From positions 1-21,441 of the IMG/VR virus record IMGVR_UViG_3300030616_000088: a stretch of DNA of 21,441 nucleotides; one strand, written 5' to 3'. The notes under the pieces were generated by a model. That model was given only the letters and a program-made list of their open reading frames with translations. It searched no databases and was not told the DNA's origin. Each line of letters starts with the position of its first letter. Within the stretch, counting starts at the first letter, position 1. Source of the stretch: a virus. Below, piece after piece: positions 1,004 to 19,727 of this stretch. The position numbers were made by a program, and so were the translations under genes.

Positions 1004-1293
1004 TTTTCACCCTTTCCGATTAGATGGTCCGCAACTCCCCTCAAAACATCTTCGGCAAGCTGTATTCTTTTGTGGACCATACCTTCTTCGGACTCTTTCG
1101 GGACAACTAAAACCTCATAGCCTAAAGCCTTCGCCCAGGCAGACAAACTATCAAGGCTTGGCTTAGTTGTTCCCTTTTCTGCCTGTGATAAAAAAGACGA
1201 AGTAGCTTTGGTTCTTCTAGCAAGCTCGTTTAGCTTCATACCCTTTAAATGCCTAATATGCCGCGAGTTCTTCAAAAAATCCTTTAATTCCAT
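1000..1293 (-). CDS. Cro/C1 (XRE)-type helix-turn-helix regulator (97 aa)
   Basis: Residues 1-65 match the XRE/Cro fold: an N-terminal helix (LKDFLKNSRHIRH), then KLNELARRTKATSSFLSQAEKGTTKPSLDSLSAWAKALGY, where LNELARRTKA is helix 2 and SSFLSQAEKG is the recognition helix. The C-terminal ~30 residues are charged and may dimerise. The ATG at 1293 is chosen because GGAGGT lies 5 nt upstream. The start overlaps the end of the lysozyme-like gene by 10 nt. Co-transcription with a lytic enzyme and with small operon partners suggests a role in timing phage gene expression, but no operator is recognisable. Confidence 0.88.
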   Translation of the reverse strand: MELKDFLKNSRHIRHLKGMKLNELARRTKATSSFLSQAEKGTTKPSLDSLSAWAKALGYEVLVVPKESEEGMVHKRIQLAEDVLRGVADHLIGKGEK

Positions 1294-5131: not shown

Positions 5132-5314
5132 TCATTTATCCTCCTTGGGCGATCTTCTAAAAAAGTATTGGAACACTAAAGTAAAAATCACAACCACCCA
5201 ATCGGGAAGGTTTATCTCTTTCCCAGAGCAAATAAGAAAACCTATATACCCCGTAAAGGCCAAGAGAACCAAATATTTAAAACAGACATCTATTAACAAT
5301 CGGTTTTTCATCAT
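5132..5314 (-). CDS. Two-helix membrane protein, holin candidate (60 aa)
   Basis: Two hydrophobic segments (about residues 11-29, FKYLVLLAFTGYIGFLIC, and 37-52, LPDWVVVIFTLVFQYFF) are separated by a short polar loop, with a charged tail (RRSPKEDK). The size and topology fit a class II-type holin. The start ATGATG overlaps the stop TGA of the large fibre gene, so translation is probably coupled; a separate ribosome binding site is weak. Its position after the tail fibre and near an amidase-like gene is typical of lysis cassettes. An inert small membrane protein remains possible. Confidence 0.6.
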   Translation of the reverse strand: MMKNRLLIDVCFKYLVLLAFTGYIGFLICSGKEINLPDWVVVIFTLVFQYFFRRSPKEDK

Positions 5315-7395
5315 TTTTCAAAGGCTATGTAAGTTACCTTGTAAGTTCCTGACGGACTGCCCGCTTTCGACCATGTAACAGTAAAAGACCCGTGGTCTGT
5401 GGCTGTAATCTTTGCCCTATTTACTGTTCCCCCCCCTTCATAATCATAAATTGAGTAGGTCGTATCCCCGTTGTAGTTAGCGAGTTTCCGATAAACACAT
5501 TGAGCGTTGCTCCCATCATCTGTTCCCCAACTTGCTTCGCCTGCGTCATCTTCCGCCCCAAAAAACAAAAATCTAGTAGGTTTAAAGCTTAACCCCGTGA
5601 CTTGTTGCGTGCCATCACCAGCAGTCGTATCCCGGGAAAATTGACCTGTTGCTGTTGCCCCAGAAGCAACCCCGCCTTCCCACGTTTTAGAGTTAGCGTT
5701 GTAATAAAGAACATACTGGTCTGTGGATTGGCTTAAATCTACGTTTAAATCCCCAATAGTAATTGTTCTATCCTCTGTTGGGTCTGTAACTGATACCGTG
5801 GTCTGCTTATTGTCGTCCGTTGCCCCTTCAAAGCTTACCTCACTTGCCAAATACAACTTTTTCCAGTACAACGCCTCCGACCCTAAATCATCCGTATTGG
5901 CGGTGTCCGAGATTAAAGACGTATTTATAGCCACAGAAGCTAAGTTATCCAAAGCTGTGCTTGCTCCGCCGACAGAGGCTAAAGCGTCATCTATCCCCTC
6001 TAAAATCGCCGCTAAGTCATCTACTGAATCCGCCTCACCTATGCTTGTGTCTGGGGTGATGTTATCCCAAGTAGCGGTTATTTCAATTTTGTCACCGTCT
6101 ATCGCCGCCGCCCCACCGTCTATAAAGATCGACACCCCGTTAAACCCAGTAAAGGCAGTTGTTCCGTCAAAAATGTTTGTGTACCATGTTTCATCAGTAA
6201 ACGAGCTATCATCGTCAGAATCAAAGTTATGCAAATAATCGTAGATATCGTCTTTTTCCGGGATGCCTGTGTCAGCGTTCCACCCGGAAGAATAAGCCTC
6301 GTTAGCACCTACTAACTCACTGGCTTCTATGACATTCGCTCCGCCTAAATGGGTCTCAAGTTCGGCCATAGTGTCTACTTCGGAGGTAGCCCCACCGTTT
6401 ACCCCTAAAAGTCCGGAATATCCCGAAACATTGGCCTCAACTCCGCCGTATTCATGCTCTATCGTCCCCGCAGAGAAGAAAGCAGTTGCGCTGTCACCAC
6501 TTGTCGCTGACCCGCCCTCAGAAGCACTAGCGGCATAATTAAAGTTAACGTCCCCGGAATCTACCGAATCATTGGGTAAATCTATATCCGCAGTCCCTTG
6601 GAATTGGATTGTAATTGTAGGTAAACTCGCGAACTTAATATAGTTGTTCACCCCGTCCCCTATTCTAAAATCGGAGGTAATGATCTGCTCTGTAAAAGAC
6701 CCGAAATTTATATCACCGTTTGCGTCAGGGTCGCTGATATCATCCCAAGCAGTAGCTCCACCAGCCGCGCCCAATGCGTCATCTATTCCTTCTAGGATGG
6801 CCGAAAGATCGTCTACACTATCAGCCTCGGCGATTCCCGTATCGGGGGTAATATTGTTCCATGTAGCGGTTATCTCAAGCTTATCTCCGTCAATAGGGTT
6901 AGCCCCGCCGTCTATAAATTGGCCTACGTTGCTTACACTAATATTATCCGGGACTTCGGAATCATCGTCTGGCTGGTCATCGTCAGGTGAGTCGTCAAGC
7001 GTATCTAGCGCTTTCTGGACAGTATCGTCCCCGGCCCCTAACCGTGTGTTAAAGTTAGTAACCGTAGTAGGAGTAGAGGAAGCGTTAATGTCGTCTAACG
7101 CCTCTAAACACTCCTGCACGGTGTCTGTGGTAGAGTTTAAGATACCATTAAAATTAGTCGTAATGACAGGAAAAGACGCGGCGTTGATGTTGTCTATCCT
7201 TTCTAAAGCCGTCTGAACAGTAGCCGGAGAAGCCAGAAACCCTTGCAACGTAGTATCATCTGTGTTAGTGATCTTGGCCTCATCGTAGACCATATCCATT
7301 TTTCCGGTGCTGTAATTATATTCCCAATTACTGTTCCCTGCCGCAAAAACAGAAATACACAGACTAAGCGCTAATAGTATAAGTATATGTCGCAT
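5311..7395 (-). CDS. Large repeat-rich tail fibre with Sec signal peptide (694 aa)
   Basis: The start at 7395 is chosen over an ATG at 7437 because AAAGG precedes it and it places a classic signal peptide at the N-terminus (MRHILILLALSLCISVFA). Residues ~35-130 hold TVQxALExLDxIN repeats, common in phage fibre shafts. A ~55-residue module beginning FIDGG and containing GDK(L/I)EITATW occurs twice, at about residues 160 and 424. The last ~110 residues (from GQFSRDTTAG) are a beta-rich domain shared with the 299-aa fibre and probably bind the receptor. The gene overlaps the small tail protein by 32 nt. A signal peptide on a fibre is unusual because phage tails normally assemble in the cytoplasm. 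Confidence 0.85.
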   Translation of the reverse strand: MRHILILLALSLCISVFAAGNSNWEYNYSTGKMDMVYDEAKITNTDDTTLQGFLASPATVQTALERIDNINAASFPVITTNFNGILNSTTDTVQECLEALDDINASSTPTTVTNFNTRLGAGDDTVQKALDTLDDSPDDDQPDDDSEVPDNISVSNVGQFIDGGANPIDGDKLEITATWNNITPDTGIAEADSVDDLSAILEGIDDALGAAGGATAWDDISDPDANGDINFGSFTEQIITSDFRIGDGVNNYIKFASLPTITIQFQGTADIDLPNDSVDSGDVNFNYAASASEGGSATSGDSATAFFSAGTIEHEYGGVEANVSGYSGLLGVNGGATSEVDTMAELETHLGGANVIEASELVGANEAYSSGWNADTGIPEKDDIYDYLHNFDSDDDSSFTDETWYTNIFDGTTAFTGFNGVSIFIDGGAAAIDGDKIEITATWDNITPDTSIGEADSVDDLAAILEGIDDALASVGGASTALDNLASVAINTSLISDTANTDDLGSEALYWKKLYLASEVSFEGATDDNKQTTVSVTDPTEDRTITIGDLNVDLSQSTDQYVLYYNANSKTWEGGVASGATATGQFSRDTTAGDGTQQVTGLSFKPTRFLFFGAEDDAGEASWGTDDGSNAQCVYRKLANYNGDTTYSIYDYEGGGTVNRAKITATDHGSFTVTWSKAGSPSGTYKVTYIAFEK

Positions 7396-7624
7396 GTTGA
7401 TCTTGCCTTTTGTTAAATTGTTTACTATTGTCCGCAAAAATTATTTGCGTGTTGAACCCATTAGAATCATAGATAAACTTCCTGATCCTCCAGACAGAAT
7501 CTGATTTTTTAGCCCCCGGGTCGGACTCGCAGACATACTCAACCTTGTTTTTAGCGTTCCCGCTCGTTCCCTTAACCTGTATCACCTGATATGGATAATC
7601 TAAGCTTGGTACTATTCCAGACAT
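7364..7624 (-). CDS. Conserved small phage tail-associated protein (86 aa)
   Basis: The segment SDPGAKKSDSVWRIRKF followed by TQIIFADNSKQFNKRQDQHATYTY matches the pattern I recall for a small protein family often next to phage tail fibre genes (APGs...s...WrI...y...iadGn..f...W..R..y.Y). Its molecular role is not known to me. The ATG has a strong AAGGAGG site. It directly precedes and overlaps the large fibre gene, consistent with a fibre-attachment or virion role. Confidence 0.75.
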   Translation of the reverse strand: MSGIVPSLDYPYQVIQVKGTSGNAKNKVEYVCESDPGAKKSDSVWRIRKFIYDSNGFNTQIIFADNSKQFNKRQDQHATYTYTISA

Positions 7625-7681
7625 TAAGCCCTCCTTGCTTTTTCTTCAAAAATATGGTATATGTTAAGTAGAGGTGAAATA

Positions 7682-7750
7682 ATGTATATCGTTTTAGCTG
7701 TTATTTTTGGGCTAATCATAATAGTTTTGTTCCAAACTTTCAGGGGCTAA
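7682..7750 (+). CDS. Candidate 22-aa single-pass membrane mini-protein
   Basis: On the plus strand, in the otherwise empty gap between the 86-aa and 471-aa leftward genes, a GAGGTG site lies 7 nt before an ATG. The frame encodes MYIVLAVIFGLIIIVLFQT plus FRG and stops. This is a compact membrane helix with a positive C-terminus. A TTGCTT/TATATG promoter-like pair with a 17-bp spacer precedes it (7635-7663), though the leader would be very short. It overlaps the stop of the 471-aa gene by 4 nt. Such tiny membrane peptides can modulate holins or exclude other phages, but there is no direct evidence here. Confidence 0.45.
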   Translation: MYIVLAVIFGLIIIVLFQTFRG

Positions 7751-9162
7751 TCACCACCTACACCTTTAAATCCCCCATACAAATATCGTCCTAAAAGGTA
7801 CGCACCTGCGCCTCCTGCCCCGATTTTCATGGTTTGTCTGCCTCGGTATTTGTTCATATTGGCCAATAGCTGTTTTGCGTTCCTTCCTAGCTCAACCAGG
7901 TCGTCAGCATACTCCTTAGAAAGATACTTTTTGAGTTCTCCGATCAATTTTGGAGTTGTCCTTATAGCTTGCCGTTCCCCGGCAGTCCCGATATTCTTTA
8001 AGGCAAAGGTGCTCGTAACCCCTTGGGTTCTCGGTTCTCCTCTTTTCCCAAAAATCCCCTCTAGCCTCTCCAAACGAGGGTACAGCTTATCACTCGCAAA
8101 CTTGTTAAGCTCTTCTATTTGCTTTCCGACTTCCGGATCAACCTTTTTCACTGCGTTGTTAATTTCTTCCTGCAACCGGCGAGAAACATTCATTTTTTGT
8201 ATTTTAGGGCTAGTCATTCCCCCCTTACCTCTCACTCCTCCCTGGAAATAATAGGACTTAGGCACTTTAGACCGTACTAACTGCTTTAGCTGTCTTAGTT
8301 TTCCTATGGTATCTATCCTTCCCTGGAAAAAATCATCTACCTGTTGCAAAAAGCTGTTTTTGGCCATTGTCGGGTTTACGGCGTCATCAAATCCCATTTT
8401 TAGAATTATGTCATCGGCGACATCTGGATTAAACGGGATATCATCAACTATCTGTCCTGCGGATGTTCTAGTTTTTTGGTAGAAAGAATCAAAAGCCCCA
8501 CCGATAGCGTCATCAAAGTTTTTATAAACCACTCTACCCAACTTGGCTTGGTCTGTAAACCATTTGTCGTTCATAATCTTTGGGCGTGCTTTTACTGCGG
8601 AGGAAACAATCTTTTCCGGAATACCTGTTAATAGTTGAGTTACTAACATATCTCCGGCCATATCAATTCCTTTTGATACCGGGCCAGGCAACCCAACTTC
8701 TCTAGCCGGATCACCGAATTTACCGACCTTATCCCCGGCTAGACTTTCTAGCATAGGCTTTCCAAACCGCCCTAAAGCAGGGCTTACGGCTGTCACCGCC
8801 ACGTCTTTTAAGGTTTGCTTGAGTGGCTTATCCTTTTCTGGAGACATTACGTTAGCCACACCCCCAACTATTCGCCTTCTTATTCCTTCTCCGATATCCA
8901 TTGTCGCTAAAGGTAGCCCCATAGGAGAAAACTTGCCGAAAGACATTTCTTTAATCAGGTTAGACATCGTTTTGGGAGGCGATACAAACTTACGAAAAGA
9001 AGATGTCAGCAAATCTCCCCCTTGGGGTTTTGTATCTATTGAACCACCCTTAGAGAACCTTTTAGGTTGCTTCCGAAGTGAAGAAGTCTTTTTTTCTTCC
9101 AATTCCTCTAAGGATATAATATTTTTTCTTTCTTCTAGTTCATCTAATGAAATAATTGGCAT
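7747..9162 (-). CDS. Probable internal virion or DNA-ejection protein (471 aa)
   Basis: The N-terminus contains two copies of IISL(D/E)ELEE(R/K)K (residues 3-13 and 15-25), followed by a basic Gly-rich linker. The middle is helical with many charged residues (residues ~210-420), and the C-terminus ends in a Gly-rich hydrophobic stretch (GAGGAGAYLLGRYLYGG). There is no catalytic motif. Position beside the 393- and 289-aa proteins, between fibres and lysis genes, matches the ejection-protein trio of P22/T7-type viruses, which form a conduit for DNA through the envelope. Ribosome binding site AAGGAGG. Assignment rests on context and architecture rather than sequence homology. Confidence 0.55.
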   Translation of the reverse strand: MPIISLDELEERKNIISLEELEEKKTSSLRKQPKRFSKGGSIDTKPQGGDLLTSSFRKFVSPPKTMSNLIKEMSFGKFSPMGLPLATMDIGEGIRRRIVGGVANVMSPEKDKPLKQTLKDVAVTAVSPALGRFGKPMLESLAGDKVGKFGDPAREVGLPGPVSKGIDMAGDMLVTQLLTGIPEKIVSSAVKARPKIMNDKWFTDQAKLGRVVYKNFDDAIGGAFDSFYQKTRTSAGQIVDDIPFNPDVADDIILKMGFDDAVNPTMAKNSFLQQVDDFFQGRIDTIGKLRQLKQLVRSKVPKSYYFQGGVRGKGGMTSPKIQKMNVSRRLQEEINNAVKKVDPEVGKQIEELNKFASDKLYPRLERLEGIFGKRGEPRTQGVTSTFALKNIGTAGERQAIRTTPKLIGELKKYLSKEYADDLVELGRNAKQLLANMNKYRGRQTMKIGAGGAGAYLLGRYLYGGFKGVGGD

Positions 9163-9174
9163 TTATCCTCCTTA

Positions 9175-10356
9175 TTAAATAGGGTTGCCATCTTGATCCA
9201 CGAAAACACCCCTTGAAGTATCATATCCAGTTGCCCCACGCTTCCGGGCGTTCTTTATTTCTTCAACCGTTACAGACATGCCGATATCTTTAGTTTGCTC
9301 CTCTCCATAGCTTTTGACAGCTTTAGCTCCTAAAACATACTCAATAGCATCCTCAATGCTCTTTTCTTCTTTAGAAGACAACTGGATCCCCGATAATACA
9401 GCGGCTATCTCTTTGTCAGACTGAACTTCGGAACTAGGATCAATACCCATCTCCCTTAACTTCTCTTCTGTCAAAAACCCGTTCTTAATAGCGTAAGCCA
9501 TAGTCATCATATTACGTATTGACTGAGCCATAAGATCGTTTCTGGTTTCAGGGATAATAGAAATGTCCGGGACAGTTCTTTTAATACGTTCACCTAAACT
9601 TTCAATGTACCTAGCCTGCCCTGATAAAATAGGAAGCAAACCAATAGACACCTCTTCTGTCTGTGCTTGCGCTCCTTGCAACGGCGCGGCCGCTTTCTTT
9701 AAAAAACTCGGAGCATACCTGAGCCTTCCTAAATCATAAGTCATCGCCGCTTTTGTTCCGGTGGCCCCAAACTCTTCATCTATCATTTTGAATTGTCGTT
9801 GTAAATTCCTCATAGCCCCAACAACCCTATTTAACTCACCAAACTTTTTCCCTAACTTTTCACTTTTATCTTTACCAGCCTGCTCTTTAGCTGAAACACT
9901 TATATCTTTAAACTTAGTAGGTACTAACTTACCAAACGGAGTTATCTTATAGTCTGTTGCGACAATGTCTTTTGACGGAGAAAACTGGCCGATCTTAGCC
10001 CCTTCCCCGGGGGACATGTCTTGATACGGAACGTCTATCACACCCCCAGTCTGCCCCATTACAGAAGTCGGGTCTATTCCTAAATTACCAAAAGCCTCTG
10101 CCACTTTCCCCATTCTTAAAATATTAGCCATTGGGTCTAAGTTTTGTTTAGCTCTTTCGTAATCTAGCGCTTCTTGCATGGATGTCGGCTTCCATGCTCC
10201 TGGTGTAGCGTACCTCTGGTCTATATCTCGTTTCATCTGATATAACCGCAAAGCGTCCTGTAACCCTTGACTTCTTTGCTGTTGAACCATTCGGCGGTTT
10301 GCTAAAGCAGAGGCGATCCCCCCAATATCCTTGTGTAAATTACTAAAATCTGCCAT
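9175..10356 (-). CDS. Probable internal virion protein (393 aa)
   Basis: A mostly helical protein. The N-terminal 65 residues (MADFSNLHKDIGG ... DALRLYQMKRDIDQ) are Gln/Arg-rich. A central region holds helix-forming repeats of basic and acidic residues, and the C-terminus ends FVDQDGNPI. No enzyme motif is recognised. AGGAGG ribosome binding site; 8 nt after the 289-aa gene. Its place between two other glycine-rich helical proteins supports an ejection or internal capsid role. A structural linker is the alternative. Confidence 0.55.
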   Translation of the reverse strand: MADFSNLHKDIGGIASALANRRMVQQQRSQGLQDALRLYQMKRDIDQRYATPGAWKPTSMQEALDYERAKQNLDPMANILRMGKVAEAFGNLGIDPTSVMGQTGGVIDVPYQDMSPGEGAKIGQFSPSKDIVATDYKITPFGKLVPTKFKDISVSAKEQAGKDKSEKLGKKFGELNRVVGAMRNLQRQFKMIDEEFGATGTKAAMTYDLGRLRYAPSFLKKAAAPLQGAQAQTEEVSIGLLPILSGQARYIESLGERIKRTVPDISIIPETRNDLMAQSIRNMMTMAYAIKNGFLTEEKLREMGIDPSSEVQSDKEIAAVLSGIQLSSKEEKSIEDAIEYVLGAKAVKSYGEEQTKDIGMSVTVEEIKNARKRGATGYDTSRGVFVDQDGNPI

Positions 10357-10364
10357 TCATCCTC

Positions 10365-11234
10365 CTAATTAAACGCTGATTGTATATAACCTTTTCCTCC
10401 GGGATAATAACTCTTGCCGTAGGAAGTATTAACGTACCCCGCAGGGTTAGAATAAGCCCGTCCAACTGGTTGCGAAGTCGGTAAGTTACTTAAAGCTAAA
10501 GCGTCTTGAAACCCTATCGGAGACCCTGCGCCACCGCCGGCCATAGCTCCCCCTAAAGAACCGCCGATTGAAGCCCCAATCATAGGAGCTCCGAAAAAAG
10601 AACCACCGATTGCACCGATCCCTGACCCTATCAAAGACCCTAAAGACCCCGCGCTTTGCCAATCGCTTAAAGCGTTCTGAAACCCTGCTTGAGAGTCAGC
10701 AACCCGCCCTTGATACTCCGCCAAAGACTTTAAGTTTGACTGCTGTATGTCTGTTTCTAGGTATGGGCCATATACGCTAGCAGGATCAATACCTATTTCT
10801 GCCATTAACGCCGCTTGACGTCCCTGTATTCCTAGCTCTGCCCTGCGTTGAGCTAAATCGGCAAGGTATTTGCCAACGTCATACCCAACGCGCCCTCTAG
10901 CTTGAGCTATTTGCTCGGCAAGAATAGGCGAAGAATACATCCCCGATAAAGAAAGGTTATGCTTGATAGAAGCTTCTAAGTCAGGTATGATGTTTTGAAA
11001 ATACTGATTGCCTAAAGCTTCCTCAAAGGAAGTCGGCCCATATTGAGCGTAATACTCTGGGCTTGCCTCTAAACTGCGTATATCCCTCAACCCCTTTTCC
11101 CTAGACATGGTGGCTTGGGGAAAAGTCTTTTTAGCCCAAGCTAATGCGTCCCTGAAAAATTCCGGAGCTTGATCGTAATGTATCGGCTTCGGCGGTGAAT
11201 AAGACGGCCTATCTCCAAATCCAAAAAATCCCAT
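10365..11234 (-). CDS. Probable DNA-ejection protein with glycine-zipper membrane segment (289 aa)
   Basis: Residues ~15-190 are helical with a PEFFRDALAWAKKTFPQ segment near the start. Residues 196-237 are an extended Gly/Ala/Ile stretch (SLGSLIGSGIGAIGGSFFG and following) typical of glycine-zipper membrane insertion in phage ejection proteins such as P22 gp7/gp20-type proteins. The tail is polar (SYGKSYYPGGKGYI). Strong GGAGGAG site. It sits just downstream of the secreted 133-aa protein and upstream of two further putative internal proteins, so the three probably form the DNA-transfer apparatus. Confidence 0.65.
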   Translation of the reverse strand: MGFFGFGDRPSYSPPKPIHYDQAPEFFRDALAWAKKTFPQATMSREKGLRDIRSLEASPEYYAQYGPTSFEEALGNQYFQNIIPDLEASIKHNLSLSGMYSSPILAEQIAQARGRVGYDVGKYLADLAQRRAELGIQGRQAALMAEIGIDPASVYGPYLETDIQQSNLKSLAEYQGRVADSQAGFQNALSDWQSAGSLGSLIGSGIGAIGGSFFGAPMIGASIGGSLGGAMAGGGAGSPIGFQDALALSNLPTSQPVGRAYSNPAGYVNTSYGKSYYPGGKGYIQSAFN

Positions 11235-11636
11235 TTACTCCTCCAATTTTAAAAGCTGTTTCAAGTCATTAAAAGATTCTTCCGACAACCCCAACTCTTT
11301 TTTTATTTTTTCAAGCTTTTTAACTTTTTCGGTCTTCTCTTTCTTCTTCTTTTCCTCCACAGGATCAATAATCCATTTTTTCTCAAGGATTTCCCATTCT
11401 TTTAAAGACACATATTTCTCTACCACGTCATTTTTTGAGTGCCCCGAACTTACGGCATTTTTGGTTAATGTCCCCAATTCAGCGTACCCCGTTTGAAACT
11501 CAATCAGCTTGCCGGTGTCTTTCTCCACGCAAACTCTGCCGTAAACTCCGTTTTTCTCAACAATCACCATTGGCAAGGGTTGTGCGAATACACACCCGCA
11601 CCAAATAACAAAAAGGATAGTAAAGCCCTTAGTCAT
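11235..11636 (-). CDS. Secreted hypothetical protein with charged C-terminus (133 aa)
   Basis: A short signal peptide (MTKGFTILFVIWCGCVFA, cleavage after VFA) is followed by a beta-rich segment (PMVIVEKNGVYGRVCVEKDTG) and, from about residue 85, a Lys/Glu-rich coiled-coil-like tail. No family is recognised. It overlaps the end of the fibre gene by 8 nt and ends directly before the ejection protein gene, so it is part of the tail operon. With five neighbours it forms the set of signal-peptide proteins within the virion block. Could be a periplasmic chaperone or tail part. Confidence 0.65.
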   Translation of the reverse strand: MTKGFTILFVIWCGCVFAQPLPMVIVEKNGVYGRVCVEKDTGKLIEFQTGYAELGTLTKNAVSSGHSKNDVVEKYVSLKEWEILEKKWIIDPVEEKKKKEKTEKVKKLEKIKKELGLSEESFNDLKQLLKLEE

Positions 11637-12528
11637 AAGCTATATACACCACCGTTATAGTTCCTGACGCCCCACCAGTACGAGTCCACGCCACAGTAAA
11701 CCCGTCAGAATCAAAACTGTTAATATTGCCTTCATATATATTGCTTGCGTCTTGGTGAATACGAATACTGTCGTCCGTGTCTGCGTTGAAAACCGTCCCC
11801 GATCTATACACACATGCCGCAGTCGTTCCGTCATCAGCCCCCCAGGAAACCTCGTCAGAGTCGGCGTCCGTAGCGTAAAAATCAACCGCTCTTGGGGTAA
11901 ACCCTACCCCTGTAACTGATTGGTTGCCCGAAGCCGTGCCTTCGTCTCTAGTGAAAGTCCCGACATAAATATCCGTTCTGCTATCTATATACTCTTTTAC
12001 CGCCTTTTCAGTAGGGACAGCGGTATTTGAACTATCTCCTAAAGTCAAATCCGTGGAAAACTCGTTTATCGCCGCACCGTTCTCTAACGTCAGCCCAACA
12101 CTTGACATTGACGCCGCTTGCGTTCCCCCACAATCAAACCTTAAAAAATCTTCGTCCGCCGATTCTTCCGTCTGTATCTTGGTATCCCTGTCTTTATCCC
12201 AAATAAACGAACTGAAATTGTTGAAAGCAGACCCATCATCTACGTTCCAGGATTTTTCGCTAGTGTTATAAACCACTCGTCCATTTGTCCCCGCGGAAGG
12301 AGTAGACCCTAACGATTCATAAAACCTAAACCCAGAGGAAGTTTTAGCGTTATCATTGTCAAGGTTCCCGTTAACAACCGTGACTATATTACTGACATTA
12401 CCGTTTAACTTTGTGTTAGTAACCTGATCGGTCGCGGTGTAAGTATGGTAAACGCTAATCTGATCCGCAAACGCCACACCGAAAAGAACCAAAAACCCTA
12501 ATAACCCAAGTAAAAACTTCTTTTTCAT
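11629..12528 (-). CDS. Short tail fibre with Sec signal peptide (299 aa)
   Basis: The start at 12528 is set by the GGAGGAG site overlapping the upstream ATG at 12540. The N-terminus MKKKFLLGLLGFLVLFGVAFA is a textbook signal peptide. The motif LGDSSNTAVPTEKAVKEYID at about residues 163-182 is common in phage fibre stalks. The last ~110 residues (from YVGTFTRDEGTAS) are a beta domain with GVGFTPRAVDFYA, WGADDGTTAACVY and TVVYIAY that is clearly paralogous to the end of the 694-aa fibre. The start overlaps the stop of the 536-aa gene (ATGA). Confidence 0.85.
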   Translation of the reverse strand: MKKKFLLGLLGFLVLFGVAFADQISVYHTYTATDQVTNTKLNGNVSNIVTVVNGNLDNDNAKTSSGFRFYESLGSTPSAGTNGRVVYNTSEKSWNVDDGSAFNNFSSFIWDKDRDTKIQTEESADEDFLRFDCGGTQAASMSSVGLTLENGAAINEFSTDLTLGDSSNTAVPTEKAVKEYIDSRTDIYVGTFTRDEGTASGNQSVTGVGFTPRAVDFYATDADSDEVSWGADDGTTAACVYRSGTVFNADTDDSIRIHQDASNIYEGNINSFDSDGFTVAWTRTGGASGTITVVYIAYD

Positions 12529-14135
12529 TCTCTCCTCCAAGGTTTCATGTAGGCGAAAATAGTCGCCCTATGTAAGTCGCACAATTCGCTAAGTCCATCC
12601 TGGACAACTCTTATCTTTATGTTTTTAAACTCCCCATACTGTTGCAGTTGGAAAGTCTCTCTCGCCACTCCACTAGCACTTAGGGTAAACGGTAATGACA
12701 CAGGTAAAGTCACAGCGCCACCGGCCAAGTTCATATCCCCAACTCTTTGCCACCCGCCGTCATCCATTTCGATATAGACATCAGCGTCATAGTCACCGCT
12801 CGCTCCAAGCTCTAAGTCCAAGGCGTCCAACATCTTATAGTTTTCGGGGTTATCAAAAGAAATGTTTTTGGACCGCCAGTCAAAAGTAATCGCAACGGAA
12901 GGCTCGGAAGACCCTGTAACCACCGGCCCCTCGTACATATCCCCCGTAGTTCCGGTGAAGCACTCAATCATCCGCCCATCATTAGCGTCTATATAGTAAA
13001 GGTCGTTTTCATAAACTATCCATTCTGCGGGATACCACCCATCAATAGTGGTCCACGACTTAGTAAGAAAATCATATACAACTACATAATCGTTTACAGT
13101 AGAAACCCCTGTAGGAATACCCAAAATATACTTATTGTCATGCAAGATAGCGCACGCCACATCTATTGAAGAAACATTTATCGTGGTTTCCCCCGTCCCG
13201 TCAAAAATATCTTGTATCGGGTCAGAAGCTCTATCCAAAAGAATTTTGTCAAAGCTTGACCGGATTAAGCTCCTTACAGCTATCGGCTCACTTGATAAAA
13301 ACCAATGATCGTTCCCAATGTTAACAACCGATCTTTCTGCGGCACACCCGATTGTTCTGCTTATAGGTTTATAAGCCCAGTCAGCTAATGGGGTTGACCC
13401 CGTTATATCAAGCATATAAACACTTCGTTGCTTATAGACTATGATTTCGTTCTCTCTAAACGGCTCTATCCTTACTATCTCTTGTCCGTCTCCGGTGTTT
13501 ATCTTTATCACGTTATTAGCGGTAAACTCTCTAGGTTCAAGGTTGTTTGAAAAATATACCCAATCCGGATAGGTAGGGTTGCCGGCTAAAAACAAATAGT
13601 TAGCAACCCAAGCTCCGGTTGTAGCTTTGGGCGGGCTAGCTGGGTAAACTGTCCCTACCGAGGTTGGCAAAACAAAAGTAGACCCATCGTACCAAGAAGT
13701 GTTGTCTTCCCCATTAAAAATAAACAGTAAGTTGTCGGCCTGTAAAAATTCGGTATTATACCCTGCCGTTAAAGCCTTCCCTGTATTAACAACCGTCCAA
13801 CTAGCTCCTGCCGAAGTAGAGCGGACAATATCTGTGCCAGAAGCGGCTAAAACGTAAGATGTTGTTGAATCCGGGTAAAAATCCCCTACCCCTCGAAAAG
13901 CCGTGTTCCCAAGGTCATCCGCGAAAAGAGCCTGTCCTTTTCTTTTTTCTAGCCTTCCTCGCTTTTCCTGGCTAGCGTTTTGGACGAGTTCTCCTTGGTT
14001 TACGTCTATGCTATCGGCTAAATCATAGCTATTCTGCCCTCCGGAAAAATCGTCAATACGGACCTTTATTAACTCTTGCGAGTACGCCGAGGCAACCAAA
14101 AACAACGAAATCGTTAAAGTTAAAAACTTTTTCAT
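12525..14135 (-). CDS. Tail / DNA-stabilisation-like beta-propeller protein with signal peptide (536 aa)
   Basis: After the N-terminal MKKFLTLTISLFLVASAYS comes IDDFSGGQNSYDLADSIDVNQ then RGRLEKRKGQALFAD, a pattern typical of phage stabilisation or tail-hub proteins (P22 gp10-like in layout) that begin with fGGlN...e...N...G.l.kR.G. The middle shows repeated beta-blade features (WVANYLFLAGNPTYPDWVYFSNN; VVVYDFLTKSWTTIDGWYP). It lies directly after the adaptor-like gene, the usual place for the protein that closes the head-tail channel. The signal peptide is completely unexpected for such a component, which normally assembles onto filled heads in the cytoplasm. Confidence 0.75.
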   Translation of the reverse strand: MKKFLTLTISLFLVASAYSQELIKVRIDDFSGGQNSYDLADSIDVNQGELVQNASQEKRGRLEKRKGQALFADDLGNTAFRGVGDFYPDSTTSYVLAASGTDIVRSTSAGASWTVVNTGKALTAGYNTEFLQADNLLFIFNGEDNTSWYDGSTFVLPTSVGTVYPASPPKATTGAWVANYLFLAGNPTYPDWVYFSNNLEPREFTANNVIKINTGDGQEIVRIEPFRENEIIVYKQRSVYMLDITGSTPLADWAYKPISRTIGCAAERSVVNIGNDHWFLSSEPIAVRSLIRSSFDKILLDRASDPIQDIFDGTGETTINVSSIDVACAILHDNKYILGIPTGVSTVNDYVVVYDFLTKSWTTIDGWYPAEWIVYENDLYYIDANDGRMIECFTGTTGDMYEGPVVTGSSEPSVAITFDWRSKNISFDNPENYKMLDALDLELGASGDYDADVYIEMDDGGWQRVGDMNLAGGAVTLPVSLPFTLSASGVARETFQLQQYGEFKNIKIRVVQDGLSELCDLHRATIFAYMKPWRRE

Positions 14136-15092
14136 TTACATCCTATGCGCTTGTGCGAACATTGTCGTAAGTTTATGCTGATAGTCTGGCCCAAGCTTTG
14201 CATTCTGGTTCGTTAATAGGTTATACAAAGCGTCCTTTGATTTTCTCCACATATCACTAGCCCTTTGCGAATCTCTATCTTGAGCGAAACAGTACCCCGC
14301 GGCTTCTAACACAAGAAAGTTGTCGGCCTCAATAAAGGGGTAATCTTCGTCATCGTTCAGCTTGTTTTTCTTTTTCTTGAACAAAGTCCTCATGGAATAA
14401 GCCCCATCTGGGATAAGCCCTAGTTTCATTACCTTATGCCTTAAAACTCTAGTCTTTGAAGCTAAAATCGCTAACGTAGTGTTAGAGGAATCCGCCAAAG
14501 TCAAATATCCTGTGGTATCCTGTGACTTACTAACATGCGTTATCCCATAAAAGGTCTTGGTCCCTGAAGCCCACCCTGTCGGGCCGGAGGCGGAAATCGT
14601 TATCTCTTCATAATCTAAAATCGTCTTGCTAGAATCAATGTACCCCTCTACCCTTATAACTGGGTTGTCAGTATCGCTCGCCGATGAACTCTTGGCTTTT
14701 AATGTCGTGCCCGTTGCCCCTATTGTTCCGGTTATCCCCTTAACCCCGAAAAGACGAAAATTCTCTGGTTTCCCTGTCACGGAATCCGCAATGTTTTGTA
14801 TGTTTCCGTCAAAATATTCTTCTTCTGTTTCGGGAGAGATTTTTTTGTTATTGGTAAGATCATAAACCCTTAAAGGCTTATCGAAATGAGCCGGCATGAC
14901 ATAGTTTTCTGTTCCGTCAACAGTGGTAAAATTATAAACGTCCTGCAACTCGGTGAAATAATCATAAGAGTTAAACAAGAAATCTTGAGCTAGATTAAGA
15001 AAAACCGCCGCTTCATCGTTTAAATAGCTTGGGTCATCAGACCGCTGAACTATATACCCCGTCTGGGTTTTTAACTCACCGAAGTTATACAT
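14136..15092 (-). CDS. Head-tail adaptor-like protein (318 aa)
   Basis: The pattern LNLAQDFLFNSYDYFTELQDVYNFTTVDGTENYVMPAHFDKPLRVYDL, then YFDGNIQNIADSVTGKPENFRLFG, matches a common phage adaptor/connector-type family with an N-terminal helical bundle and a beta insert ('tyaLP.dfd...rvy', 'G.P..frl.g'). No signal peptide, unlike its downstream neighbour. An AGGAG site precedes ATG 15092; a TTG three bases upstream is less likely. The C-terminal half includes a basic stretch (LFKKKKNKLNDDEDYPF) and a helical end. It would bind the portal, whose gene is off window. Confidence 0.65.
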   Translation of the reverse strand: MYNFGELKTQTGYIVQRSDDPSYLNDEAAVFLNLAQDFLFNSYDYFTELQDVYNFTTVDGTENYVMPAHFDKPLRVYDLTNNKKISPETEEEYFDGNIQNIADSVTGKPENFRLFGVKGITGTIGATGTTLKAKSSSASDTDNPVIRVEGYIDSSKTILDYEEITISASGPTGWASGTKTFYGITHVSKSQDTTGYLTLADSSNTTLAILASKTRVLRHKVMKLGLIPDGAYSMRTLFKKKKNKLNDDEDYPFIEADNFLVLEAAGYCFAQDRDSQRASDMWRKSKDALYNLLTNQNAKLGPDYQHKLTTMFAQAHRM

Positions 15093-15301
15093 CAATATCT
15101 CCTTGCTTTTGAAACAGGGTGGACTCCAGTAATCTGTAAAATAGTAAAGCTTCTAGTTTTCTCAATAACCCTGTAATTCATTATGACCTGAACTTTCTGC
15201 CCTATTTTCGTTTCGTTTAGCCCCATAGCCATTTGTTCCGGGATCGTCACTTCCGGTTGGCCGCCAGGGTAATACATGCTAGCAACTCGTTTAAAAGTCA
15301 T
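15092..15301 (-). CDS. Small beta-rich phage protein (69 aa)
   Basis: The segment NETKIGQKVQVIMNYRVIEKTRSFTILQITGVHPV looks like a compact barrel ('iGqkv.v...yrVi......i.i..v.pv'). This resembles small phage proteins of unknown role found near connector genes. The 73-aa neighbour has a similar arrangement (IGEKGQMRANLVLDSERLEMEEG ... VTAEDIQ), so the two may be distant paralogues. AAAGGAGA ribosome binding site. It overlaps the neighbours upstream (4 nt) and downstream (1 nt). Confidence 0.7.
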   Translation of the reverse strand: MTFKRVASMYYPGGQPEVTIPEQMAMGLNETKIGQKVQVIMNYRVIEKTRSFTILQITGVHPVSKARRY

Positions 15302-15519
15302 CTTTTCTCCTTTATTTGGATATCTTCGGCAGTCACAACAAGAAACGTCATCACTTTATGCTCGCTACCCTCTTCCATCTCTAACCGCTCAGAATCCAAT
15401 ACTAAGTTAGCCCGCATTTGGCCTTTTTCCCCGATATCCAAGTCTTTAGCCATAGCGAACTTTTTGTCTAACACTATTCTAGGTTTTCTAGTTTGTGGGA
15501 ATCTCCTACTTTCAAACAT
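15298..15519 (-). CDS. Small beta-rich phage protein (73 aa)
   Basis: A basic N-terminus (MFESRRFPQTRKPRIVLDKK) is followed by DLDIGEKGQMRANLVLDSERL and a final strand MTFLVVTAEDIQ. The 'iG.kg.m..n.vlds.rl' core resembles the 69-aa neighbour and small phage proteins of unknown function. Strong AAAGGAGA site; ATGA overlap with the following gene. Likely a minor virion or assembly protein, by position only. Confidence 0.7.
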   Translation of the reverse strand: MFESRRFPQTRKPRIVLDKKFAMAKDLDIGEKGQMRANLVLDSERLEMEEGSEHKVMTFLVVTAEDIQIKEKR

Positions 15520-15529
15520 ACAATCTCCT

Positions 15530-15889
15530 TTAATAAGTTGCTAAGATACTAACCGGACTCGCTACATACTGGTCAAAATAAACAGTTACCCCTGATGTAG
15601 AATAATTCTCTAAAGTAAGTTGCATTGCCCCTGCCAACCTTATACTTCCCGCGGTGTCAACAACATTAGGAGAACTGGATACATCTGAAAAATCAACCCA
15701 AACAGCATGGCTTGTGTCACCGTTTAGCACGGATACCGACCTACATGACTGATAGGGAAAAGATATAAACTCCTTTGCGTTTTCAGCGTCTAAATATACG
15801 GTTTTCTGGTAAACATTCTGTTTATAATCCTGTGCAAACACCGATACCGCGAAAATTACAAACAACCCCACAAACAAAGCTTTCTTCAT
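15530..15889 (-). CDS. Secreted small beta protein in the virion operon (119 aa)
   Basis: Signal peptide MKKALFVGLFVIFAVSVFA with cleavage after VFA, then a domain with alternating beta-type residues (AKEFISFPYQSCRSVSVLN; MQLTLENYSTSGVTVYFDQY). The 'sv.v.N.d.s..vWVdf' and 'a..ltlenys..gvtvyfd' pattern suggests a small beta-sandwich of the sort found in phage decoration or tail proteins. No family name is recognised. Strong AAAGGAGG site and ATGA overlap with the 65-aa gene. Confidence 0.7.
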   Translation of the reverse strand: MKKALFVGLFVIFAVSVFAQDYKQNVYQKTVYLDAENAKEFISFPYQSCRSVSVLNGDTSHAVWVDFSDVSSSPNVVDTAGSIRLAGAMQLTLENYSTSGVTVYFDQYVASPVSILATY

Positions 15890-16083
15890 CTCATCCTCCT
15901 TTGGACTAAATCTTGTCTTTCTTTTTCCGTTAAAGTGTCAAAGTTAGCCCTATCCACTAACTTACCGTCCCGTTCAAAAAGTTTTCCCTCTAGCTCCCCA
16001 TACCAAAATCCAGAAATATCGCACCGTTTAAGCTTCCCTTTATACCAAGACGGAAGCCCTTTTGACCGCCCTTTTCTGCTCAT
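15886..16083 (-). CDS. Small conserved phage protein (65 aa, RCDxSGFWY motif)
   Basis: Starts MSRKGRSKGLPSWYKGKLKRCDISGFWY, followed by a turn (ERDGKLVDRANFDTLTEKERQD). The RCDxSGFWY....L..rdG.lV...~.DtLte pattern is one I recall from small zinc-finger-like phage proteins near head genes, but here only one Cys remains, so zinc binding is unlikely. The ATG at 16083 has AAAGGAG 7 nt upstream and lies inside the end of the O-antigen ligase-like gene (44-nt overlap). Probably the true continuation of the operon after that insertion. Confidence 0.7.
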   Translation of the reverse strand: MSRKGRSKGLPSWYKGKLKRCDISGFWYGELEGKLFERDGKLVDRANFDTLTEKERQDLVQRRMR

Positions 16084-17230
16084 GCACAACTCCTTTGAAT
16101 AGCCCGTAAAATAAAACAAAAAACATTCCTGACATAGCCACATGATTAGCGAAAACACCCATACTGCATAACATATAAGCTAAAAGACAACAAAAATATA
16201 AGCACAGCTCTTTGTTTCTGTACCGCTTAAACTCCCGGAAAAAGCTTACAAGAAAGAAAACTAAAATCGCTAGCCCCAGGCGTCCAAACTCAAAGATCAA
16301 CTCTATATAATCATTATGAAAATGCGTGTACTTCTCAAGCCGGCGGTTAAAGTATCTGTTCTCTTTGTATAACGGCAAAACTTTAGACGTGCTCCCTAAC
16401 CCATACCCTGTCCAAGTATTAGCGCCCAATATCTTTTCATGGTGCTTGACCTCTAACGGAATATGACCCGTTAACATAGCCTCAAACCCTACCTTTGCCG
16501 GGGCGATCCTCCCGTGCAAATGCCCTAAGACGTTTTTGTCGTATTTGGTAAAGAAAACCGCCGCCCCGCATAAGAGAATCACCAACGTAAAGTATCTTAG
16601 TTTATGCTTAGTTAAAAAAAGATAAACGATAGACGCTACTGTAAACCCGACAAAAGCGAACGAAGTCGTAGAACAAAAAAGACCGAAAAGGACCAATGGC
16701 AGTAAAACAGGGCATACCCCAACAGCTATCGGGGCGGTAGTCGCAAAGAAAACCCCTAGTTGGTTATGGCTTCCGCTGAATCCCACAGTATCATCGCTGG
16801 AATAATCAACTTTTCCGTGAACGACCTTAGTAAACAAAGGATCAATGCCGTTAGCTTGTAAAATAACCCAAGCCCCTTGAAGGAGAATCAACCCAATGAT
16901 AGCCCAACAGACTATCTTCCTTTTCTTAACCGTCAGGTTGCTTATTCCATACATAGCCAACCCCGCGAGGTAGACTTCTCCTGTGATAAACATAGCTTTC
17001 ATGTTTAATTTGGTAACGAATATCGCCGAAAGAAGGCACATAATCGAAAAAAGAGAGATAGCTTTGTCAAACTTCCATAAGAAAATAGACACACCTACCA
17101 TAAATAACGCAATCAGCGCAATACATTGAGGATACCAGACATCAGCCCCAGGCATTGGAATAGCCGCCGACAACGGAACTATAAATAGCGAAGCGATAAT
17201 AAGAATTAAATATTTGTTTATAGTTTTCAT
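16040..17230 (-). CDS. O-antigen ligase/polymerase-like (WaaL/Wzy) membrane protein (396 aa)
   Basis: About ten hydrophobic segments across the length. SGSHNQLGVFF (His155) and YTHFHNDYIELIFEFGRLG (residues 301-319) form the characteristic Wzy_C/O-antigen ligase signatures, with the HNDY histidine in the large periplasmic loop and a conserved Arg241 region (GRIAPAKVGFEAML) before it. Such proteins attach or polymerise O-antigen sugars on lipid carriers at the periplasmic face. Phage-encoded versions are known to change host serotype (for example phage D3). Here the gene sits inside the virion operon. It has no ribosome binding site and its ATG follows directly on the U-tract of an intrinsic terminator, suggesting low or special expression. 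Confidence 0.85.
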   Translation of the reverse strand: MKTINKYLILIIASLFIVPLSAAIPMPGADVWYPQCIALIALFMVGVSIFLWKFDKAISLFSIMCLLSAIFVTKLNMKAMFITGEVYLAGLAMYGISNLTVKKRKIVCWAIIGLILLQGAWVILQANGIDPLFTKVVHGKVDYSSDDTVGFSGSHNQLGVFFATTAPIAVGVCPVLLPLVLFGLFCSTTSFAFVGFTVASIVYLFLTKHKLRYFTLVILLCGAAVFFTKYDKNVLGHLHGRIAPAKVGFEAMLTGHIPLEVKHHEKILGANTWTGYGLGSTSKVLPLYKENRYFNRRLEKYTHFHNDYIELIFEFGRLGLAILVFFLVSFFREFKRYRNKELCLYFCCLLAYMLCSMGVFANHVAMSGMFFVLFYGLFKGVVHEQKRAVKRASVLV

Positions 17231-17261
17231 AATAAAAACAAGGGGAGGCCGAAACCTCCCC
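17231..17261 (-). terminator. Intrinsic terminator behind the capsid genes
   Basis: On the minus strand a 7-bp GGGGAGG/CCTCCCC stem with a 6-nt loop (17242-17261) is followed by TTGTTTTTATT. It lies 10 nt past the stop of the secreted 118-aa gene and ends exactly at the ATG of the O-antigen ligase-like gene, so it should limit read-through from the capsid genes. Confidence 0.85.
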
Positions 17262-17271
17262 GATCTTGCTA

Positions 17272-17628
17272 TTAGTCTCCTAGCGTGTTACCTCTTACCG
17301 TGTTTTGTGTGCCTACGGCGGTGCTACTAGCAATGGCTATCCTGTACTGCCCCCAACTACCAGTAGGGAAACTAGCAATTTCCCGGATACTGGTTGAAGA
17401 AGTAATGCACAGAACCCCAGAAGCTACATAAAGATAGTATGGTTCGTCCTTTACAGCGTCATACAACTCTATGTACCCCGGGTTGCCGGTAACATCTAAC
17501 CCGTTTACACTCAGATTACCGTAGTTAGATTTCCCCTCATAATTGTAAGTCGGGTTTCTAACACTTTGAGCGTAGCAAAGCGAGGACACGAATAAGATCA
17601 TCAACACGCTGATGATAGCTTTCCTCAT
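17272..17628 (-). CDS. Secreted small protein directly behind the capsid gene (118 aa)
   Basis: Signal peptide MRKAIISVLMILFVSSLCYA, cleavage after CYA, then NPTYNYEGKSNYGNLSVNGLDVTG, a beta-rich middle (GYIELYDAVKDEPYYLYVASG) and a Ser/Thr-rich end. The 'l.vnGldvtG..g.ie~yda~.~~pyyl.v' pattern suggests a virion decoration or fibre-type domain. Strong AAAGGAGGG site, 12 nt after the major capsid protein stop, and followed by a terminator, so it should be expressed as strongly as the capsid. A signal peptide at this position is highly unusual. Confidence 0.72.
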   Translation of the reverse strand: MRKAIISVLMILFVSSLCYAQSVRNPTYNYEGKSNYGNLSVNGLDVTGNPGYIELYDAVKDEPYYLYVASGVLCITSSTSIREIASFPTGSWGQYRIAIASSTAVGTQNTVRGNTLGD

Positions 17629-17640
17629 AATCCCTCCTTT

Positions 17641-18543
17641 TTACGCTCCCGCACTTCCGTAAGTACCCATATAATGTGAGTACCCTACTGAAAACCTCAT
17701 GCGTTGTAAGTGTTTCAAGTTAGTAGAATCAAAGTCCGTCCCCCTACGCAAAGCGCCCGGTTTAACTCTCCAGAAGAATTTAAGCTTGTGCTTTGACTTC
17801 TCAGCTAACAAGAACCATGCGTCAGTGTCAGTAAGATAGTGGCTTACAAAATACTGCAAGTCCTTCTCCTGCAAGGCGTTGCGTTCGTTGTTGGCTACAT
17901 AAGGTTTATACTCTGATCCTAGCAATTCATCTGCTATGTTCCAAAGGTCAACAGGAACAAGCAAGGTTACAGCCTTTGTCGGCTGTTTTAAGCCTCTTTC
18001 GTCTTCCAACTTCTCTATCGCGGTGATAGCCGCTGTTAAAGAAGTAACGCTTAAATCAGCGTCAGTGGAAGGTTTGTTGGCTTGTGTTCCGCCAGAAAGA
18101 ACCGGGTGAGAAGCAGAAAGCAGCGGTACACCGTCAAACCCGTTGGTTGTAAACCCGTTGTTGAACACGTTGAACGCTGTTATTTCTACTGTCTCTTCCG
18201 CGCTTCTTGACAAAGCAGTCGGAAGCTTGTCAAAAGTTTCCGGGGTCCGCAAGTTATCTTCTATGGCCTCTTCGGTGATCTCATAGCCTAGCGCATAAGT
18301 AGTATGCACGTAAGTTTTTGAGATACCAGTATATAGAGTGTCGTAGTCTGCGGCCGACCCTTCGGCTTTCTCCTGGAACAATCCAAACCCAGAGACAAGG
18401 CTGTCTTTCTCGGACTGCTTATCGCTAGATTCTACGTTAAAAACTTTCCTGTACTCTTCACCCCAACCGTTTAAACCGTCTTGGTGCATTTCGTTCAAGT
18501 TGGCGTCAAGAGTGTCTACCATAATTGTTGAGTTAATAGGCAT
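17641..18543 (-). CDS. Major capsid protein (Mu gpT-like features, 300 aa)
   Basis: Residues 75-100 (SKTYVHTTYALGYEITEEAIEDNL) and 136-150 (FDGVPLLSASHPVLS) match the pattern of Mu-like major head subunits with an HK97-type fold, and the C-terminal segment (HKLKFFWRVKPGALRRGTDFD, then MRFSVGYSHYMG) fits the strand-rich core. The length of 300 is in the family range. No signal peptide. Strong GGAGGG site. It is preceded by the decoration-like gene and, further upstream, the scaffold-like gene, the usual order for head genes. Confidence 0.82.
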   Translation of the reverse strand: MPINSTIMVDTLDANLNEMHQDGLNGWGEEYRKVFNVESSDKQSEKDSLVSGFGLFQEKAEGSAADYDTLYTGISKTYVHTTYALGYEITEEAIEDNLRTPETFDKLPTALSRSAEETVEITAFNVFNNGFTTNGFDGVPLLSASHPVLSGGTQANKPSTDADLSVTSLTAAITAIEKLEDERGLKQPTKAVTLLVPVDLWNIADELLGSEYKPYVANNERNALQEKDLQYFVSHYLTDTDAWFLLAEKSKHKLKFFWRVKPGALRRGTDFDSTNLKHLQRMRFSVGYSHYMGTYGSAGA

Positions 18544-18557
18544 TTATCCCTCCTCTC

Positions 18558-19130
18558 TTAGACACCGTTTACGCCACCTACAAAGTAGCTTTCATTAAAA
18601 GTAACAACCAAATCTACATGAGCGCCCCAATCGTTCCCTGGTTCGTCCACCTTGTCAAGGATACAGCACTGAGCGGCGCTACCAGTTACCACGGTAGAGT
18701 TGAGCTCATGCCCTGATCTTCCGGTAGTCGTGCTTCCTGTTCCTGCAACGTGGTTGGCACAAGCGAACCTATCAGTTGCCGCTAAAGCCGTGCCTGTTGA
18801 CGCTTGAACCCTAAATTTGGCCCCAGGTAGCGCAAGAGCTACCAATAAGAACCCTGTGTCGCCGGAAGGTAGGTATTTAGTTGAGATGGTGCTGTTAGGA
18901 TGTCCCGCCGGCACTTTGTTCTCATCTACGATACCTACAACCACACCATAAACTATGTTCGCGTCATCGGCGGTGGCGGCATCTAAGTCGCCTCCTGATT
19001 TAACGCTAACAACATCTCCAATGAAAATGTTGCTACCTGCTGAGTTAATGGCGGCTATTTCCACAGGGATTTTTGACCCGTCTAACATACCTATTGGCGT
19101 GAAACCATTAGGTCTATCTGAGTTAGCCAT
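18558..19130 (-). CDS. Capsid decoration/stabilisation-like protein (190 aa)
   Basis: Begins MANSDRPNGFTPIG, then FIGDVVSVKSGGDLDAATADDANIVYGVVVGI, a pattern common in small head-associated phage proteins (MAn...p.GF.pvg ... i..GD.V....dG.v..a.ag....GV..g). The rest is Gly/Ala/Thr-rich with a final acidic-aromatic segment (HVDLVVTFNESYFVGG). No signal peptide. AAAGGAGGG site, 14 nt upstream of the capsid gene. A capsid spike or cement protein is the best guess. Confidence 0.7.
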   Translation of the reverse strand: MANSDRPNGFTPIGMLDGSKIPVEIAAINSAGSNIFIGDVVSVKSGGDLDAATADDANIVYGVVVGIVDENKVPAGHPNSTISTKYLPSGDTGFLLVALALPGAKFRVQASTGTALAATDRFACANHVAGTGSTTTGRSGHELNSTVVTGSAAQCCILDKVDEPGNDWGAHVDLVVTFNESYFVGGVNGV

Positions 19131-19172: not shown

Positions 19173-19727
19173 TTAAGATTTCATTCCTAAGTCTTTTGCA
19201 GTCTGCAAGCCTTTCATAGACTCATGGATTCCGCTTGATATCTCAGAGGCGTTGTCTCCCTTTTTCATAGTCCTCTTAATCATGTTCATCGGTGCGTCAG
19301 CTTGCTTCTGCTTATACTCCCTTTTCTCCGCATACAGTTCTTTAGGTATGCGAGCTAGAACCGTGTCTCCGACACGATAAAGACCGTCCGGGGCGATATA
19401 CTCGTCAGCTATCCCAAGCTTTTTTAAATGAGCTCTGTTAACCAACTGCCACCCGCCTTTTTGAAAAAGCATGTTGCCAGTTTTCATAGATAAGTTTTTA
19501 AACTCATCCTTTAAAAACCTGTACTCGTACTTTGGGTCCTTGTTGGACAAAGTGAAAGGATCAACCTTCCCATACCAATCTTTTATGACCTCAAGTGTGT
19601 ACTCATCCTTCTCCGGGGCTCTCATCGCCGGCGGAGTTCTGTCCGCAGTTTCCTGCGATAATTCCGAGGGTTTTTCCTCGTTAAGAGACTTCTTCTCTTC
19701 AGGGCCAGTTTTCTTGGTTTCCTTCAT
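19173..19727 (-). CDS. Head-region structural or assembly protein (184 aa)
   Basis: Residues ~60-135 contain DPKYEYRFLKDEFKNLSMKTG, GGWQLV, then GLYRVGDTVLARIPKELYAEKREY. The pattern 'dp.yeYrw..d...n......Gw..v...vGD.vLmr.Pkel.....' is seen in phage proteins between scaffold and capsid genes. The first 40 residues are Lys/Glu-rich and disordered-looking; the last 40 basic with MNMIKRTMKK. No enzyme motif. The start overlaps the scaffold stop (ATGA). Possibly an internal head or minor capsid component. Confidence 0.62.
   Translation of the reverse strand: MKETKKTGPEEKKSLNEEKPSELSQETADRTPPAMRAPEKDEYTLEVIKDWYGKVDPFTLSNKDPKYEYRFLKDEFKNLSMKTGNMLFQKGGWQLVNRAHLKKLGIADEYIAPDGLYRVGDTVLARIPKELYAEKREYKQKQADAPMNMIKRTMKKGDNASEISSGIHESMKGLQTAKDLGMKS

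Follow-up and report, generated by a model that had tools for sequence, protein, structure and literature searches.

Tail proteins that begin with export signals raise the question of where a tailed phage builds its tail. To our knowledge, all tailed phages studied so far assemble their tails in the cytoplasm, and tail export is not known for any of them. The question is raised here by a viral contig of 21.4 kb (IMG/VR record IMGVR_UViG_3300030616_000088, positions 1 to 21,441, hereafter the window). Its virion genes lie on the minus strand, and the stretch is best explained as the virion module of podoviruses of roughly 45 kb that form a clade. Six of its proteins, including a predicted tail nozzle and two fibres, begin with Sec signal peptides, and the explanation favoured here, with a probability of just under 60%, is that the external tail parts leave the cytoplasm and mature in the periplasm, that the heads are filled in the cytoplasm, and that the two are joined at lysis.

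Signal peptides and their distribution among the virion genes

The original prediction, that six proteins of the window carry Sec signal peptides and that these include both fibres and the tail protein adjoining the adaptor, holds: all six were recovered on the minus strand with their n-, h- and c-segments (Table 1), the tail protein is the nozzle, and the signals are kept in orthologues, which makes the observation stronger than when it was made. As in substrates of Sec and signal peptidase I (SPase I), each has a basic n-region, a hydrophobic h-region and small residues at -3 and -1; a lipobox Cys at +1, a twin-Arg motif and any further transmembrane segment are absent from all six.

About 19 related viral contigs formed the comparison set, in which the nozzle relatives are 44-63% identical; their genes were clustered and then scored with a home-made heuristic that applies a single rule and a single threshold. 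Positives made up 91/352 of the same-strand genes of the clade, against 2/329 genes of outgroup phages and 10/351 antisense open reading frames (ORFs), which bears out the claim that the pattern lies beyond chance. Four cultured phages of Bacteroidota (phi14:2, crAss001, phi12:1 and P2559Y) gave 0/67 positives among their virion genes, one set of which is backed by mass spectrometry. Chance hydrophobicity as the source of the signals was ruled out by these three controls, and the last of them speaks against a general trait of Bacteroidota phages.

Within the clade, signals were found in all 14 orthologues of the 118-residue protein (p118), all 12 of the 119-residue protein (p119), 16 of the 19 nozzles and 15 of the 16 copies of the first fibre (fibre 1). 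The three negative nozzles comprise one whose 5' end is cut off (L022), one whose start was called too far upstream (L015) and one just below the threshold (L002), so that nearly all the copies with an intact 5' end have a signal peptide at the equivalent place. The long distal fibres that lie past the ejection genes are also signal-bearing in most relatives, and short signal-bearing proteins occupy the position of the window's 133-residue gene in L002 and L003. On the other hand, head, adaptor and ejection orthologues gave 0/92 signals (adaptor 0/18, a 184-residue protein 0/13, the others as in Table 1), which extends to the whole clade the earlier observation that capsid, decoration, adaptor and ejection proteins lack such starts. 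The ejection-type genes, whose products have to get into the head, are signal-free and are flanked by fibre 1 on one side and the distal fibres on the other, both signal-bearing, and the distribution is thus not explained by operon position; operon-wide hitchhiking was ruled out for the same reason.

The cleavage site itself appears, from the alignments, to be kept by selection. In the nozzle, identity is 34% in the signal region and 58% in the mature region (MKKFLTLTISLFLVASAYS/QELIKVRIDDFSGG, the slash marking the predicted cut), and the residue at +1 is Gln in 16/16 copies, amid otherwise hypervariable sequence, with Ala or Ser at -1 in 14/16. Gln also stands at +1 in 16/18 aligned copies of p118 and 10/16 of p119, or 42/50 for the three proteins taken together; fibre 1 mostly has Gly.

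The original prediction had allowed that corrected starts might remove the signal segments. No conserved start codon was found just downstream of the cleavage site in the clade copies, so that mis-annotated starts were ruled out and a signal-free form made from the same gene is not expected. A further claim, that a strong ribosome binding site precedes each gene, holds for p118, p119 and fibre 1 and fails for the nozzle, preceded in the window by no more than a weak AGGA, and for the 133-residue gene, which has none. In 12 of the 14 nozzle copies checked, the Shine-Dalgarno sequence is absent and the start lies on or near the stop codon of the adaptor. This arrangement, seen in most relatives for the genes at 12525-14135 and 14136-15095 of the window, suggests translational coupling between what would be the last cytoplasmic and the first exported tail protein.

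The nozzle, the clade and its possible host

Profile matches of the 536-residue protein fall in virion structural and head closure families, the best score belonging to a family named for an amidase. An AlphaFold2 model built from 16 relatives (predicted local distance difference test, pLDDT, 63) was compared with the PDB by Foldseek (E 9e-16), and the top 21 matches were all phage tail complexes, in the order VP1, Pa223, SU10, Sf6 gp8, P22 gp10, then T7 and others (VIA Z 14). Judged from this model, the protein is a podovirus tail nozzle. The SU10_adaptor gene lies directly upstream, an arrangement kept in relatives, and the likeness to the nozzle and adaptor systems of P22 (gp10/gp4), Sf6 (gp8), T7 (gp12/gp11) and SU10 covers the fold, over about residues 60-536, and the neighbourhood, with fibres and ejection-type proteins downstream. 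Known podovirus nozzles and fibres are signal-free and assembled in the cytoplasm, whereas conserved signals stand on both the nozzle and the fibres of this clade.

For p119, the AlphaFold2 model (pLDDT 86) consists of the signal helix and an eight-stranded sandwich that resembles many small uncharacterised Caudoviricetes proteins, with weak and mixed PDB matches, and fits a small virion protein that gained a signal. No cultured relatives of the ligase described below, of p119 or of the fibre N-terminus were matched in the phage collection.

The limits of the trait were traced through the capsid. Contigs with capsids at 60-78% identity have the signals and the ligase wherever the region is covered, and those at 33-39% have the structural genes with neither signals nor a recognised ligase; in the capsid tree, a branch supported at 100/97 sets the signal-bearing contigs apart. 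The export signals mark a single, previously undescribed clade, and a scan with the adaptor added no new lineage. The distant relative Caudoviricetes sp. ctKR88 (MW202524, Manatee Spring), whose nozzle is 25% identical over 97%, shares the order of nozzle, short ORF, fibres and three ejection-like proteins; it differs in having no signals, and in having glycosyltransferase genes and no annotated Wzy_C ligase in the region. As ctKR88 has a similar gene order without them, the signals were probably added later, to older virion genes. Homologues with the same domains and no signal, which had been named in advance as evidence to the contrary, do exist, all of them outside the clade (ctKR88 and L011), and thus point to a gain rather than to a refutation. 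The N-terminus of the ctKR88 fibre (MGTL..) resembles the start of the mature exported fibre (GTIS..), a match too short for significance.

Two other observations concern the head genes of relatives. An ORF that looks like a LAGLIDADG homing endonuclease (MDNKIELGWLAGIIEGEGCF...) interrupts the capsid gene in L010 (4916-6508) and L064 (8944-10654), and an intron there is likely. A GroES-like co-chaperonin of ~137 residues is encoded upstream of the portal in L023 (10145-10558), L029 (13255-13707), L032 (10055-10468) and L041 (3902-4315); a 10-kDa chaperonin is likewise annotated in crAss001.

Signal peptides on the tail proteins of tailed phages, as a class, were not found reported in the open-access literature, and an earlier description elsewhere is possible; the closest accounts are those of Porphyromonas phage proteins that obey the Q-rule (PMC10367356) and of the T4 Spackle protein. 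This protein, gp61.3, is exported through a cleaved signal peptide and binds a tail protein (PMC7650644), but it is an inhibitor of the tail lysozyme, with proposed target copies outside the virion, and not a structural part of the tail. The coat proteins of filamentous phages (Inoviridae, such as M13) bear signal peptides, serve as substrates of Sec/YidC and await assembly in the inner membrane, as described for G3p (PMC8310372). The likeness lies in the signal-bearing virion proteins, whereas the filamentous phages have no icosahedral head, are extruded without lysis and encode unrelated proteins.

The Gln at +1 also bears on the host. Under the Q-rule of Bacteroidetes, Gln occupies this position in most SPase I substrates, at above 48% in 332/334 species with a mean of 71% (PMC5837995; the rule is also treated in PMC10653852), and high values occur in non-Bacteroidetes such as Ignavibacterium album (PMC5837995). 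The pattern in the clade suggests, without proving it, a host of the Q-rule type, which probably has two membranes, although fibre 1 mostly has Gly at +1 and strong Shine-Dalgarno sites are common. Searches of genome contigs with nozzle patterns found no prophage relatives, an integrase scan led to unrelated loci, mostly of Acidobacteriota, a tRNA search found no tRNAs, and a profile run against 395 genomes of the phylum to which a Kapaibacterium metagenome-assembled genome belongs gave one weak partial match. Integrase-like and repressor-like genes in L026 (contig 3300020202_000026, 15227-16189 and 17316-17942) indicate that some members may be temperate.

Gene layout and the linked O-ligase

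Table 1. Virion-region genes of the window, with predicted signal peptides (slash, predicted cleavage) and supporting matches.
Feature	Position	Strand	Signal peptide	Remarks
118-aa protein (p118)	17272..17628	-	MRKAIISVLMILFVSSLCYA/QS (CYA/Q)	conserved directly after the capsid gene
O-ligase, 396-aa polytopic membrane protein, WaaL/PglL superfamily (Wzy_C)	16040..17230	-		PF04932, 2.3e-10
119-aa protein (p119)	15530..15889	-	MKKALFVGLFVIFAVSVFA/QD (VFA/Q)	eight-stranded beta sandwich
Head-tail adaptor (SU10_adaptor)	14136..15095	-	none	PF24175, 2.1e-7
536-aa tail nozzle (predicted)	12525..14135	-	MKKFLTLTISLFLVASAYS/QE (AYS/Q)	nozzle fold
299-aa tail fibre (fibre 1)	11629..12528	-	MKKKFLLGLLGFLVLFGVAFA/DQ (AFA/D)	phrog_9851 tail fiber
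133-aa protein	11235..11636	-	MTKGFTILFVIWCGCVFA/QP (VFA/Q)	singleton
289-aa putative internal/ejection protein	10365..11234	-	none	orthologues 0/11
393-aa putative internal/ejection protein	9175..10356	-	none	orthologues 0/9
471-aa putative internal/ejection protein	7747..9162	-	none	
694-aa distal fibre	5311..7395	-	MRHILILLALSLCISVFA/AG (VFA/A)	
Major capsid protein (control)	17641..18543	-	none	PF25209 and Mu gpT matches; orthologues 0/15
Head decoration-like protein (control)	18558..19130	-	none	orthologues 0/13
Scaffold-like protein (control)	19724..20584	-	none	orthologues 0/13

Between p118 and p119, all the clade contigs that cover this stretch encode a Wzy_C ligase, which was neither seen nor recognised in the outgroup. 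The original prediction makes no mention of this gene, although it lies between two of the six. Its invariant residues are R241, H303, H305, HxHN and E, the window copy reading H-N-x9-G-x-x-G, and it has the Wzy_C domain and the catalytic Arg and His expected of a PglL enzyme; the likeness to solved members of the superfamily (9rmk, 7tpg) includes the conserved H-x-H-N and Arg. By profile, the oligosaccharyltransferase 9rmk scores 1.2e-13 (about 282 positions) and WaaL 7tpg 2.5e-12 (about 157 positions). The clade ligase differs from the known members in being phage-encoded within a structural operon and in lacking the PglL_A motif region: PF15864, which discriminates PglL from WaaL, did not match the window protein when this was scanned against Pfam with a cutoff of E <= 0.1. 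The sequence places the enzyme in the WaaL/PglL superfamily, with a tail protein and a lipid core as the candidate acceptors; the functions of PglL and WaaL are not separable by sequence comparison alone (PMC3643930).

Beside the ligase, L036 (17381-19821) has two adjoining paralogues of 364 and 448 residues (MATHITNAT.LQNMNLN...) that carry no signals, an exception in this neighbourhood, and in L051 (10033-11291) the ligase is split into two overlapping ORFs, by a frameshift or a sequencing error. Further along the window, a 262-residue ORF (1284-2072, minus strand) with no Pfam match has an inner hydrophobic stretch that ends VYA/ENTSK, after which the sequence presumably resembles a peptidoglycan hydrolase; the true start may lie downstream, and the product may be a secreted endolysin.

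Possible routes of tail assembly

P22-type phages add the nozzle and spikes as the final parts, once packaging is over, and this step would for that reason be the easiest to move to another compartment. Export of the tail module combined with filling of the heads in the cytoplasm fits the distribution of the signals, given that external tail parts carry them and that no part which has to sit inside the head, or between it and the nozzle, does. Under this explanation, the nozzle and the fibres, together with two or three small proteins rich in beta structure, would be made with Sec signals and cross the inner membrane, the host SPase I would cut them, often leaving an N-terminal Gln, and they would be folded or assembled once in the periplasm. 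The cytoplasm would be where capsid, portal, adaptor, ejection proteins and DNA come together, and the tail would meet the filled head when holins open the inner membrane, which would couple tail joining to lysis. The phage ligase may add a glycan, on the periplasmic side, to tail parts or to a host surface glycolipid. The fuller picture of a two-compartment virion, with a Sec-exported and possibly O-glycosylated tail of nozzle and fibres, that gains infectivity during lysis is put at even odds.

Several points weigh against this explanation. Export is inferred from the sequence, the signal calls come from a home-made scorer, and the signals would have to suit the Sec and SPase I of a host that the searches did not find. 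In addition, Pro stands at -1 in two of the nozzle cleavage sites, some small proteins of the fibre region have no signals, and no site evidence speaks for the glycan branch. Fast folding could outrun the signal, and the heads would have to retain their DNA without a nozzle until lysis. As to the earlier suggestion that tail parts are exported along a distinct assembly or maturation route, the conservation in the clade, the cleavage site and the split between head or internal proteins and external tail proteins speak for it, and the choice among periplasmic assembly, membrane-attached assembly and envelope display lies beyond what sequence can settle.

A special case that does not exclude periplasmic assembly is that export serves mainly the O-glycosylation of tail proteins by the ligase. 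The constant position of this gene in the clade, with p118 on one side and p119 on the other, and its absence from what was seen of the outgroup, would suit such a role, as would the oligosaccharyltransferase 9rmk being its best solved relative. PglL genes usually adjoin their substrates and lie outside lipopolysaccharide loci (PMC3643930), as does the ligase, flanked by two signal-bearing candidates. The WaaL score is nearly equal, however, and no PglL_A match was found. The Bacteroidetes O-glycosylation motif, D[ST][AILVMT], was not enriched in the signal-bearing proteins. Glycosylation as the main purpose is thus possible and rather doubtful.

Another route would keep the virions on the cytoplasmic face of the inner membrane, where they would be finished from tail parts gathered there by hydrophobic segments that act as anchors, uncleaved or cleaved late. 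These segments are conserved in kind and not in sequence, and the inner membrane is where the Wzy_C neighbour resides, but the AxA/AxS sites with the invariant Gln at +1 are a requirement of SPase I and serve no need of anchoring. Nor would every fibre need a signal of its own, and Sec would translocate the mature part anyway, which makes tethering unlikely.

Slightly less likely still is that the exported copies act at the envelope, in receptor blocking, superinfection exclusion or glycan modification, and that the virions use non-exported copies. The ligase is an enzyme of a type that alters surface glycans, and periplasmic phage proteins that limit superinfection exist, such as T4 gp61.3 (PMC7650644); however, the nozzle has no obvious surface role, a conserved internal start for a cytoplasmic form was not found, and the signals stand on external tail parts and not on head parts. 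Finally, a gene-calling artefact or unrelated hydrophobic starts, for which one might cite the 3% of positives among antisense ORFs and the two window genes with a weak or no Shine-Dalgarno sequence, are highly improbable in view of the in-frame conservation in relatives, the invariant Gln, the near-zero outgroup and head controls and the lack of conserved alternative starts.

The assembly of tails in the periplasm directly predicts the N-termini of the virion proteins, which are checkable by N-terminal proteomics. If it is true, the assembly of heads and tails would be separated in space and the completion of the particle tied to the timing of lysis, and the tail proteins would be open to periplasmic chemistry, such as disulfides, O-glycans and N-terminal pyroglutamate. 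It would also mean that an assembly pathway may be relocated by the addition of signal peptides to existing genes.

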